Source of the DNA: Adineta ricciae
Lineage: Eukaryota; Rotifera; Eurotatoria; Adinetida; Adinetidae
Assembly (NCBI GenBank): GCA_905250025.1
Contig: CAJNOJ010000001.1
Coordinates: 992,001 to 1,056,000, forward strand
Length of the DNA: 64,000 nucleotides
Reading direction: 5' to 3'
A program made the translations under genes and the position numbers. Below the pieces are notes generated by a model. The model searched no databases, was not told where the DNA came from, and saw only the letters and a program-made list of their open reading frames with translations. Below, one piece after another: positions 42,958 to 48,220 of this stretch (positions are counted from its first letter, which is position 1; each line of letters opens with the position of its first letter).

Positions 42958-43917
42958 CTATACTCCGATGAATCTAGTTTTTCTTTGTGATATGATATTC
43001 TCTCGTGTTCAACAACAGTATTGAATCGACTTCATGTACATGCAACATATGATGCCTTATGATTCTCGTCTCTTGTTCTATATCCATATGTATCATTTGT
43101 CTGTGTGCTGTGTTCAGTTTTCATCTTCTTCGTCTTTGTGAGCTGCCCATTATCAGATAATGTATTCGATCTTATCAACATAGATTTCATACACATCTTA
43201 TTTTGTTCCTATGATATATGTATAGTGTTCTTGTTTTCTTAAATTAACATAAAAACCGCCAGTTATTTTGTGAAAATATGACTTGAAAAGAAGATCTATG
43301 TTCCTAGAATGGCTATTGTGTTCCTGAACATCAGATGAATGCTGATACTTTTGTTCTGCTCGGTGTTCTATGACGACATCAACATATTGAAGGACGTGGG
43401 TGTTTTTTGATCATGAAAATTTCACGAAGATACTTTTTTGTGGTAAAACGAATAGAATTAGTAGAAATCATTTATCAATGATGAGTAAGACTTAATACGA
43501 CACTTTCAACTCTCACTGGTGATCAAGAAGAATGTGCACAATTGAATTTGATCATCGAACTTCTTTTTACACATAGTCGATTACAAATAGCAAGTGAATA
43601 TAGATGTAGATTTATTTGGAAAGAAAAATATTCGGAATCATAGTTTTGCTCAATGTTTGTCATCATCGGCTGGATTTTTGTAATGATTGGTAACATCTAT
43701 AAATAAAGAATAGTATTGAATACTAATAGGTTTCATTCATCAAGAAGGATTATTAACACTCTAGATTTCAATCTAAAAGAGTCGATGACTTCACCCTCAA
43801 ATCACTCAGCTAATAAGGACAAATATATGATGACATCAGAGCTGGAAAACACGCGAAGTTATTCGCTCATATAGAAAATGATAAATCTACTAGGAATACA
43901 TGGCCGAATAAACAGGT
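42958..43917. other. Convergent spacer between TRPC and secreted-peptide gene
   Basis: AT-rich; carries the 3' UTR of TRPC, with AATAAAGAATAG near 43702 as a possible poly(A) signal, and the 3' end of the minus-strand peptide gene. No exon seen. Confidence 0.5.
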
Positions 43918-44290
43918 TTACAAATTATTGTCATTACCGTTATCGAACTCATCGACTGATCGACCCCAGTGTTTCAATTGCGCCATTGTATCATGATATT
44001 GTTTCATCTAAACAAGAAAGAACAGATTGTTAGATGGAAAAAAGACAAATTTCCTCGGTCAGTCTTACGCGATCAATATTACGATCAGAGTCACTCAAAA
44101 CATGATACTTAATTGGACGATTCGGAACTATTGACATAGGAAAAGAAAAGTTATCGATCATCAACATCCTTCAATCAAACGTTCACATACTGGATATATC
44201 CCGAAATAATTGATAAGCTTGACATGATGAGAATATGAGAAAAAGACAAATAGTTAGAGACAAGATAAGGTATGGACGATAAAGTGCCAT
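43918..44290 (-). CDS. Small secreted peptide precursor B (candidate amidated neuropeptide)
   Basis: Three exons: 44290-44191, 44127-44069, 44007-43918; introns of 63 and 61 bases; phases 1 and 0; 82 residues. A clear signal peptide (MALYRPYLILSLTICLFLIF then SSCQA, probable cleavage after CQA) is followed by about 57 residues without cysteine. The stretch from DISIPNRPIKYHVL through QLKHW is followed by GRS, so Gly could supply a C-terminal amide after cleavage at Arg, and an acidic tail follows (VDEFDNGNDNNL). A putative 36-residue helical amidated peptide starting ISI matches the length and start pattern of the egg-laying-hormone/DH44/CRF superfamily, but identity is low. The gene sits directly downstream of a second secreted-peptide gene on the same strand. 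Confidence 0.6.
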
Positions 44291-44626
44291 GTATTCGTTG
44301 TTTGAGAAAAACTAATGTAAATATGTAGTTTTACGCTCAATGTATTATATATTCCAAGTAATTTTATTTCCTCTCTGAATAAACGCGATTGGCATTGATT
44401 AGTTCAGAATTTTGTTATTATTTTTGACATTTATGTCATCACGAATCATTTTGTCTGAGAGAAAAACCTTCTGTTTAATCGCACATGTCATGCAAGCAGT
44501 TTTCTTTCTTAGACAAATGTATAGAGCAGATAATTAAATTTACTTCCTGGTAAAAGAAAATACGGAAAAGCAGAATGTCTTCATGTTAATAATTCATTGT
44601 ACACAAACTATTTTCTAAAATTCATT
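44291..44626. other. Spacer between tandem peptide genes
   Basis: About 336 bases between the stop of peptide gene A and the start of peptide gene B. It would hold the A 3' UTR and the B promoter. AATAAACGC at 44379 reads on +, not on the genes' strand. Nothing else seen. Confidence 0.4.
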
Positions 44627-45224
44627 TCACCAAACGTCCTTGCGTAGGTGGTCTCGTTTCAACGTATGATGAGAGTAGAGATGCTCGATCAGTACAGATG
44701 ATAACCGACTGGCCTAGACGATTTCATTTCTGATAGTTTCGATTCGGAGTCTAATTTTCAACTCGAGAAATCTCTTGATGTTCGAAGTTTATTAAAGATG
44801 TTCAAAACAAAGGTCAGCAAAGATTCATTATGTAACAGGTTGTGTTTAAGCATAGGATACGATCGGCATTCAATGCGGTACTTTGCGTAAAAACCATTTA
44901 TGAAGTAGAAAGTCATACATTAGAGCTCGCGATCGACTTTTATCCTTTTTCGCAATCTTGGTTTCACGATACCATTTGGAATGATCAAGATCCAAACCGG
45001 ATTCCATCGAAATCTATGCATATCTCATCAGTTTGAGTAGAAAAGGCTTGAAAAACTATTTACTTCTCTGCCATATTGCCGTTGAAGTGAACCTGTGTGA
45101 AAAAAAAGAAGAAAAAAGTCGATATAACATGTTAAATCCTATTGAAAATCTCACCGATCGTTGTGGAAAGATGAATAAAAAGTAGAGATAAAATGACAAC
45201 ACACGAGAATGTTGGATATTTCAT
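44627..45224 (-). CDS. Small secreted peptide precursor A
   Basis: Exons 45224-45155, 45092-45064, 45013-44882 and 44713-44627 join in phases 1, 0 and 0 to 105 residues. MKYPTFSCVVILSLLFIHLS is a strong signal peptide, with probable cleavage near TTIG. The rest is basic and cysteine-free: SLQRQYGREISMESGLDLDH, an AKKDKSRSR segment with dibasic sites, then LMYDFLLHKWFLRK, and a last exon with LIEHLYSHHTLKRDHLRKDVW. The first three exons are well supported by phase; the last, after a 168-base intron, is less certain. Exon phases (1, 0) and the element REIS/RDIS are shared with gene B, suggesting an ancient tandem duplication. The family is not recognised. Confidence 0.5.
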
Positions 45225-48220
45225 AGCTGTTAAACAATTTCGCGTAATCTTGGGAGTCACAGGCTGACCTTAATCTTAATTGATGAGTAATAGGAAAGAA
45301 AATCTTTTTCTTCACAATTTATAGTCGTATTAACGCATCCATTTATCAACTGGAGAAGAAAATTAGGAATCTTCAGTAGTTATTTATAGAACAAACAACT
45401 TTCCTTATAGTACTTTAATTCGGTACTTTTCAAAAATGATTTAAATATATATCACAAACCAAGCATGTATTTCACACGCAACAATTCACGGCAATCAACT
45501 GTGAATTTTCTACAGACTCGTCGGAATCCATTCTACAGATGTTTTATACAAAGATACACCTTCATCGTTTTGAACTTAATTAACGCCATGCAGACGAATG
45601 ATGACGTGAGAAAGAATTGGTATCAATTATGCGTGTATCTATTTTAAGAAGAAAATCTTCGGCACATTGATAGTCGAGATCACTTTTATTTCAGATCGTT
45701 GTGACTTTTGCGGACAAGAAAGTAATCAGTGACGTTTAAGTTGCATTGAACGGAAATTTGTAATAGATATTCGAATATATCCCTTGACGGAAAAGAGACA
45801 AGAGAGATGATGTAAAAAAGATTGATGTTGAAGTGAACAAACGACGGCAAATGAGAATATTTTCATCCATTTTATCATTTGTCGGACATGTTATCGAACC
45901 CTCGTAAACGAAAGAAACAAATAATTAACGTAATATACTCAATTTCACCGATCATATTTATAATCATTATGAAACATGATATATGTCAATAATTTCCAAA
46001 ACAACCTTCTAGTCAAAACTGTATTAATCATCAATTACGAAAAGAAAACTTCATGATAAAATCGAACAGCTTTTTATTCTAAACATTAATGTTCTCATTA
46101 GCAATTACATATGTAGATGTATTTTTCCTCTCACAACCTATTCAATTAATTGTTGTCAAGGACATCTCATTCTTCATGGCCTATCATTACTTATTTTTCT
46201 TCAGTTCATCGAAGTTTAATTATGATTTGTAGAAAAGAAGAAGATTTCGACGATGAATCACATGAAATGATCGATATAAATAGTTCGATCGAGATTGTTC
46301 CGATGGCATCTTTTTCACGATGACTTGCGCGTGTTGCTAGTCTGTTTTCCAGACAGACCATTGATAGAGATCAGAAACATGAATTTTGATGAATGATAGT
46401 CAGCTGCTAGTTATGCGTTCGCCTTCGACGACGACACAGATTCTTCGAAATTTGCTTGGTTTGGTTTACTCATAATTATAAACGAACGATATAAAGACAC
46501 TCATCGATCTCTCTTTGTGTCAAATGGACATTGTCGAAATGGGAGGATCCTTGTCAAAGAAATGAACAGGTTTAATGATCAATATATTCAACGTGTGAAT
46601 CGAAGAGACTATCTTTGAAACAAGCGACAAAGTAGAATAACAAACGGATAGAAATGAAAACTGACATTGTTATTCTGGCAAGTGTCGACCGATCTGTATG
46701 TATGCAACAGCAATAGATAATCACCCATCTGTCTGTCACTCGTTTCCTTATTTCATTTCTTTTGCACGTCAGAGATGTGTGAGAGTCGGTAACGCCCACC
46801 CTCGGGCATACATATATCTGGCTCGCTTTCTATCAAACGAAGTCCGTTGCTCTCTTTCTTGTTCTTTTGCAAATGATCCAATTATCATTTTGATGTGGAG
46901 AAAATGAATAACAATGGAAATCTTTTGTCTAGGTGATAATTCACATCAAGAATGTCTTTATATTCAATTGCGTTTGGATTTGCGAGAGAGAGAGAAAGAA
47001 ATTCGTTCATAGATGAGAGTTATACTCGTGTTCGATTAACTGACATCTAATGTGCTCCCTTTCTCATTCATCGTCTCGAAAGTGATTTCATTTTAGGGTA
47101 TATACCTACGTGATGATGGTATGTCACACTCGTCCAACGTCGCTTTTTCTCCTATATACTGTCGATTAATTCAATGATTGATTGAATATATAGATAAACA
47201 AATATCAACGTCATCAAGCAAGGAGATGTAACCACCATGATCAAAATCAGTCGTTCGGTTGCTCTCGGGGTTTTTTCTTTTGCTAGTTGAGCGAAAAAAA
47301 GAAAGAGACCAAAAGAGAAATTCTTTTCCTCTGTATTGATCATATGCGGAAATATGTTTTGTGATAACCATCATTTACTAATTCATTTCATTTCTTGTTC
47401 AATACCGAACTATTCATTTGACAACTAATTTAAGTCGCTCTCTAGGTGGTATACAAGATGATAAAGCAGACTTGAAAACTCGAACTGTTGCATCATTCAT
47501 CAATTTGTGTTTCCTTTCTTCAAACGCGTTCAACAAATATTGCCGCGTCGTAATTCGACTTGATTGACGACTAGATATTAGCTTTTTTTTTATTGCAAAT
47601 CAAACATTATTTATCTTTTCTATCAGCCAAAAAAATTTGTACCAAATATCTATAGTGAAATATTATTACAGACCGAATAAAAAAAAACCTATTAATTATC
47701 ATTTCTTCCCTCCTCTTCGTTCTCTCTTTTTGCTCTTGCTCTTTGTATTTTTCCAATCAGATAAGACATACTTCTCGTTTATCATTGGACGAAATCAACC
47801 ATTTAATCAATCGGCCAATCGAGTTGCAAATAACTTCAGAACAAGAAAAAGAGAAAAAAAAACGCGCTGAGGAGAAAATGACTGTCTCTTGCCTTCTCTC
47901 ATTTCCTTTCGCATGAATGCATTTATCTGATTAGTCGTCAGTAGAAGAAGACACAAATTGCCTTGCACATCGAACCATAAAACAAGAGAGAGAAGTAAGA
48001 GCAAGAGGAGAGAGAGGGAAAAAAGACGAAAGAAATAGAATCTTGCAATCTACCCAGTCAGACATAGAAAAAATAGTTGTTGTTATCTATGTTACCGGTC
48101 GACGCGTGTAACTTGTAGTTTCAACAAAAGATCCTATCGGAGACAAGATATCAAAAATTTCGATAAAACCCTTTTTGTGTCTTATCATTACATTCTTTAT
48201 TCAATTAGATCAAACTAACT
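45225..48220. other. Intergenic, no gene supported
   Basis: 3 kb of AT-rich DNA between peptide gene A (-) and the GATA gene (+). Scattered 60-80 residue frames on both strands have no family resemblance. GA-rich tracts lie at 46984-47000 and 47986-48020. Likely holds both promoters. Confidence 0.5.

Follow-up and report, generated by a model that had tools for sequence, protein, structure and literature searches.

A C-terminal RxRF/Y amide is regarded as diagnostic of NPY/NPF signalling (PMC6389622), and an intron that splits the RF/RY arginine codon after its second base is described as the hallmark of NPY/NPF genes (PMC7314547, PMC8536682). The locus considered here lies in 64,000 nucleotides of the rotifer Adineta ricciae (NCBI GenBank assembly GCA_905250025.1, contig CAJNOJ010000001.1, positions 992,001 to 1,056,000 of the forward strand), the whole of which we call the window. 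On its minus strand, at 44290-43918, there is a three-exon gene with MALYRPYLILSLTICLFLIF, called B in an earlier sequence-only reading and here the MALYRPY gene, with a peptide part that ends QLKHW-GRS. We consider it, at a probability of roughly 70%, to be a diverged paralogue of NPY/NPF-type genes that would encode a secreted single-peptide precursor with an altered receptor-meeting end. The searches covered the window's own assembly (130 Mb, 1033 contigs), in which C1 denotes the window's contig and C6, C65 and so on denote other contigs.

Gene structure and homologous copies

The MALYRPY gene had been overlooked among tiny exons (Table 1), as the sequence-only reading claimed, and its two junctions, 44191/44127 and 44069/44007, had been placed exactly. 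Both have GT-AG borders, in phases 1 and 0, and both recur in homologous copies on C6 and C65, which encode precursors of 92 and 94 amino acids. The gene stands far above chance because its three exons recur, with their phases, on both C6 and C65, and at the level of sequence it is confirmed as real, together with its Gly-Arg-Ser amidation-type site. The predicted precursor of 82 amino acids consists of a 25-residue signal peptide, a 42-residue peptide YQLFRDISIPNRPIKYHVLSDSDRNIDRMKQYHDTMAQLKHW, GRS and a short acidic tail. Signal-peptide cleavage was placed by eye and gives 42 residues from YQLF; the earlier proposal of 36 residues starting ISI is not supported, as no cleavage site precedes ISI.

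A DNA search of the genome with 43918-45224 found, besides the query itself, a single place, C6:939222-939283, which corresponds to exon 3 and its acceptor. The surroundings of the gene are also conserved. Frames translated from the window between 61 kb and 25 kb match C6:920-960k, with the order reversed, and the peptide gene lies between a TRP-type channel gene and a GATA-finger gene. A stretch of the TRP-type gene is present in three copies, on C1, C6 and C65. Bdelloid rotifers are degenerate tetraploids, and homologous copies in conserved order fit such a genome, although they are no proof.

The open reading frames are intact in all three copies. For the window and C6 pair, the nonsynonymous and synonymous rates are Ka 0.44 and Ks 1.29 (Ka/Ks 0.34); the corresponding proportions of changed sites (pN/pS) have a bootstrap range of 0.38-0.79, and only 0.1% of the bootstraps reach 1 or more. 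A leucine, a tryptophan, an arginine and an MKQY block are conserved across the three genes; the peptide ends read QLKHW-GRS in the window gene and HLRYW-RRS and HLRYW-RRA in the two homologues.

C6 and C65 are 93.6% identical across 3.2 kb and resemble an allelic pair, and the window's contig is without such a partner in the assembly. Upstream of the peptide gene, window positions 44300-46340 have no detectable DNA similarity to C6 (936.1-938.9k) or C65, although both flanks are similar; the C6 counterpart holds a stretch that looks coding by eye (locus L002, about 1-460).

NPY/NPF-type genes of the same genome

The Pfam model Hormone_3 (PF00159, curated cut-off 28.7 bits) matched 18 stretches of the genome, with C67, C214, C31 and C28 (both exons combined) above the cut-off. 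Eight precursors were spliced, counting those of the window, C6 and C65, and three more, on C80, C163 and C110, consist of a single exon whose reading frame is uninterrupted by introns. Those on C67, C214 and C392 were read and incompletely spliced, the place on C50 gave no convincing precursor when read, and C33, C71 and C681 were outside the reading. The gene on C31 (C31:116862) is a canonical NPF that ends ...NYYAIIARPRF-GKR, with its RF arginine codon interrupted by the intron, although its last exon is a guess. C67 and C214 likewise hold canonical NPF genes with this intron.

The genes on C28 and C16 end RPRF-GRS and RPRF-GRA and are without the intron in the RF arginine codon. Instead, they have two introns, one in phase 1 before PPPxRP and one in phase 0 before VHEYY. 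These two introns are common to seven of the eight spliced genes (window, C6, C65, C28, C16, C1:609k and C13), and the last four of these also exceed the Hormone_3 cut-off, two of them keeping RPRF-Gly-Arg. When the Pfam scan was run on nine of the 11 precursors (all except C163 and C110), Hormone_3 was found above the cut-off in C16 (3.2e-14), C28 (9.3e-14), C31 (1.9e-8), C1:609k (7.5e-8) and C13 (2.7e-7), and below it in C80 (E 1.5e-5); weak matches in C65 (E 0.0042) and C6 (E 0.006) also count towards the kinship.

A profile of the three copies (window, C6 and C65) aligned with a profile of seven genes (C28, C16, C1:609k, C13, C80, C110 and C31) at a probability of 93 and an E of 3.5e-7 over 37 columns, in which QLK is set against RPR. 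This alignment scored 37.8, whereas none of 200 column shuffles exceeded 16.4; the window peptide alone scored 26.0 against the NPY/NPF-type profile, and its own 200 shuffles reached at most 19.8. The C6 peptide as a query gave nine matches. Four are the paired exons of C6 and of C65, and one is the window gene (E 0.003); the others are C80, C163 and C110 (E 0.013-0.051), all of them also found by Hormone_3, and a match on C395 (E 9) that we take as chance. The window gene, C6 and C65 all retain P-x-R-P, with PxxP spacing, although the exact NPY positions are not comparable. Against solved structures, the seven-gene profile gave 44 matches, including NPF and pancreatic-polypeptide-type chains (best 1k8v, E 0.001). 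In a tree of 12 short peptides the window gene groups with C6 and C65 (94/88) on a long branch, and the deeper forks are weak. The proposed link to NPF rests on the same-genome paralogues as intermediates and on the shared introns.

Several results weigh against this assignment. The window precursor has no Hormone_3 match in the Pfam scan, its only match being a membrane-protein domain of unknown function (0.039) over the signal peptide, and the matches in C65 (17.5 bits) and C6 (17.0 bits) stay below 28.7 bits. The C28 precursor as a query, with E up to 10, gave 14 matches that are all Hormone_3 places and missed the window gene, C6 and C65. The three-copy profile gave eight matches to solved structures (best E 0.13), none of them an NPY-type chain, and a Moniezia NPF scored 40.0 with the seven-gene profile and only 11.8 with the three-copy profile. 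The RxRF/Y amide end is absent from the window gene, C6 and C65; the intron in the RF/RY arginine codon is absent from these three and from C28, C16, C1:609k and C13, and is present in C31. The amidation-site glycine is replaced by arginine in C6 and C65, and Ka/Ks between these two is 0.33 with a bootstrap range of 0.12-1.06, which reaches above 1 and is therefore not decisive for that pair. Because the RxRF/Y amide end and the hallmark intron are gone, the MALYRPY gene would be descended from NPF without being a canonical NPF.

Two further groups of NPF-type genes are without the RPRF-amide, namely C1:609418 and C13:428833, which have GRWRV or GRWRS before Arg-Arg, and C80, C163 and C110, which have KLV before Arg-Arg. 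Ka/Ks in the RWRV/RWRS and KLV groups was 0.11 (with synonymous sites saturated), 0.43 for C80/C163 (bootstrap including 1) and 0.26 for C80/C110 (bootstrap below 1), values that favour retention for at least some of these genes. Only C1:609k shares a contig with the window, at a distance of 0.4 Mb; all other NPY/NPF-type relatives are on other contigs. After the peptide, the precursor tails of C28 and C1:609k resemble single EF-hand calcium-binding loops (FDVNGDNSIAPDEF; FDINHDHIITKSEF), for which the Pfam model EF-hand_6 gives E 6.2e-5 and 5e-4, below its cut-off. An EF-hand inside an NPF precursor would be unusual.

Alternative explanations

The altered end could also mark an NPF duplicate in decay, in which signalling has been lost, the C-terminus has drifted and the window copy is losing its function. 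The window copy does sit on a long tree branch (0.97) and, measured against five outgroups, has 4-6 protein changes on its side compared with 1-2 on the C6 side, and the amidation glycine is not conserved in C6 and C65. These changes do not differ significantly in number (largest chi-square 3.57), however, and the intact frames and splice sites of three copies, the pN/pS of the window and C6 pair and the conserved leucine, tryptophan, arginine and MKQY block all speak for retention, so that we regard decay as unlikely.

Membership in the CRF/DH44/ELH superfamily, which the sequence-only reading proposed, was suggested by a helix-like, cysteine-free stretch with a length near 36-42 and the letters ISI. 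ISI is not conserved, being LPV or IPV in C6 and C65. No Pfam CRF or ELH match was found, with E up to 10, for the window, C6 and C65 precursors, and four CRF/DH44/ELH-type peptides scored 6.6-7.7 against the three-copy profile. In the genome-wide scan, made with the CRF model alone, none of four matches passed the Pfam cut-off; we therefore abandon this kinship as extremely improbable. A relative of the PrRP/short-NPF branch would account for the intron in phase 1, since PrRP genes have such an intron near the start of the peptide (PMC7314547), as intron 1 lies in the N-terminal to central part of the peptide here, with a second intron in phase 0. Short NPF can also end in an RF- or RW-amide, with M/T/L/FRF(W)amide given as its end (PMC6389622). 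The window gene ends K-H-W and its homologues R-Y-W, however, rather than R-W or R-F, and the P-x-R-P start and the match along the whole helix go with NPY/NPF-type genes; according to PMC7314547, echinoderm PrRP-like peptides are without the two prolines. We rate this origin as improbable, and the diverged NPY/NPF-type paralogue remains our preferred explanation.

A second proposed gene and the neighbouring genes

The sequence-only reading placed two secreted-peptide genes in tandem here, of which the MALYRPY gene, with its homologues, is the one that stands. For the other, with MKYPTFSCVVILSLLFIHLS (MKYPTF...), a strongly hydrophobic, signal-peptide-like start is present at 45224. From 45092 the reading frame extends only to ...FSSLFYSN before it meets a stop, so that the chain needs an extra junction that had not been listed. 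Genome searches with two versions of MKYPTF found only the gene itself (two of two matches and two of three matches). The third match, on C3 (E 0.03), is taken as chance and lies antisense to an exon that we take to be TAF1. The syntenic places in C6 and C65 have no MKYPTF match, and two C6 tblastn matches (E 0.62 and 5.0) lie elsewhere; a Pfam scan of the 44-amino-acid version found no family.

When the minus strand of 43240-46400 was shuffled 1000 times, a start as hydrophobic with a usable first splice occurred in 0.8% of cases. Applied to the plus strand of the window, however, this rule also picks out four candidates (33384, 40906, 42547 and 43059), of which 40906 is inside the Ion_trans exon of the channel gene and 42547 and 43059 are close to where the TRP-type gene ends on its 3′ side. 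In a looser test, at least one minus-strand candidate appeared in 16% of 200 shuffles. The MKYPTF gene is thus unsupported on present sequence evidence, though not disproved. A tandem duplication is not supported either, as MKYPTF has no homologue found and no similarity to MALYRPY, whose true relatives are the NPY/NPF-type genes. The REIS/RDIS element said to be common to both genes is GELP or GEIP in C6 and C65, and, as we read the earlier chain, it lies across a junction of phase 0 in one of the genes but of phase 1 in the other; because these phases differ, it is not a shared element.

Table 1. Coordinates of the MALYRPY gene, the second proposed gene and neighbouring genes in the window.
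Feature	Position	Strand	Description
Exon 1	44191..44290	-	ATG, signal peptide MALYRPYLILSLTICLFLIFSSCQA, peptide start YQLFRDIS; phase 1 at its end; C6 and C65 have this exon too
Exon 2	44069..44127	-	IPNRPIKYHVLSDSDRNIDR, with the P-x-R-P of the NPF family; ends in phase 0
Exon 3	43918..44007	-	MKQYHDTMAQLKHW-GRS-VDEFDNGNDNNL, then stop; 81% DNA identity to C6 over 62 bases (44012-43951)
Proposed amidation and cleavage site GRS	43965-43957	-	within exon 3
Intron 1	44128..44190	-	63 bases, GTATGT...ATAG
Intron 2	44008..44068	-	61 bases, GTAAGA...TTAG
Second proposed gene (MKYPTF...)	44713..45224	-	signal-like start, speculative splice chain; unsupported
TRP-type channel gene (TRP_2, Ion_trans)	38.6-43.2k	+	neighbour
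GATA zinc finger gene	48.3-49.1k	+	neighbour
ABC transporter gene	28.2-30.4k	+	neighbour

Proposed product and action

If the MALYRPY gene is expressed, signal peptidase would release YQLFRDISIPNRP..., a convertase would cut after Gly-Arg and the glycine would be converted to an amide, giving a 42-residue peptide that ends ...AQLKHW-NH2 (a Trp-amide). A monobasic site after the amidation glycine has a precedent in a PrRP-type peptide of a starfish, where mass spectrometry proved it (PMC7314547), and the RPRF-GRS of C28 suggests that the Gly-Arg-Ser of the window gene is inherited. The C6 and C65 precursors, with Arg-Arg in place of the glycine, could yield a free-acid peptide. The N-terminal P-x-R-P and the stretch RNIDRMKQYHDTM would retain the NPF scaffold, with the canonical RPRFamide replaced by L-K-H-W (L-R-Y-W in C6 and C65). 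In abalone modelling, contact of the NPF C-terminal residues with receptor loops is critical (PMC8536682). With its end altered, the peptide would therefore have a receptor that has changed too, act as an antagonist or belong to a decaying gene. Most likely, the W-ending peptide would signal through a changed NPF-type receptor or block one.

Significance and comparison with known systems

We tentatively suggest, as a possibility short of an even chance, that NPF-type genes multiplied in this lineage and that three branches (QLKHW/HLRYW, RWRV/RWRS and KLV) rebuilt the receptor-meeting end while staying intact over homologous copies, which would make them NPF-scaffold ligands without the RxRFamide key whose receptors may have changed with them. 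Paralogues that have the scaffold, secretion and exon plan without the RxRF/Y end would make ligand-receptor co-evolution testable inside one genome, in which the canonical NPF genes are the controls. An in-depth survey of gnathiferan neuropeptides has been called the next frontier (PMC8557429), to which the rotifer case adds. Searches of the open-access literature for rotifer, bdelloid or Adineta neuropeptides and NPY prohormones found no title on rotifer NPF among those listed, and nothing was found there on an NPF with an intron and a penultimate arginine.

The ELH/DH44/CRF peptides share length and the lack of cysteines with the MALYRPY peptide, which matches them neither in sequence nor in profile. 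With NPF/NPY (Hormone_3), it shares a signal peptide with a single peptide of ~36-43 residues directly behind it, a pair that ends in [YH] (QYY/QYH) ahead of the C-terminal part and a profile match through same-genome paralogues; its P-x-R-P near the start may correspond to the NPY prolines. It is, however, without the RxRF/Y-amide and the RF-arginine-codon intron, and it has a tryptophan before Gly-Arg-Ser. The genes on C28 and C16 have both introns in the same places and phases and Gly-Arg-Ser or Gly-Arg-Ala after the peptide, but keep RPRF and pass the Hormone_3 cut-off. Hymenopteran NPF, which ends KARYamide (PMC6389622), also departs from the canonical RPRF/Y; it is still an Arg-Tyr-amide, however, and the MALYRPY gene has lost even that.
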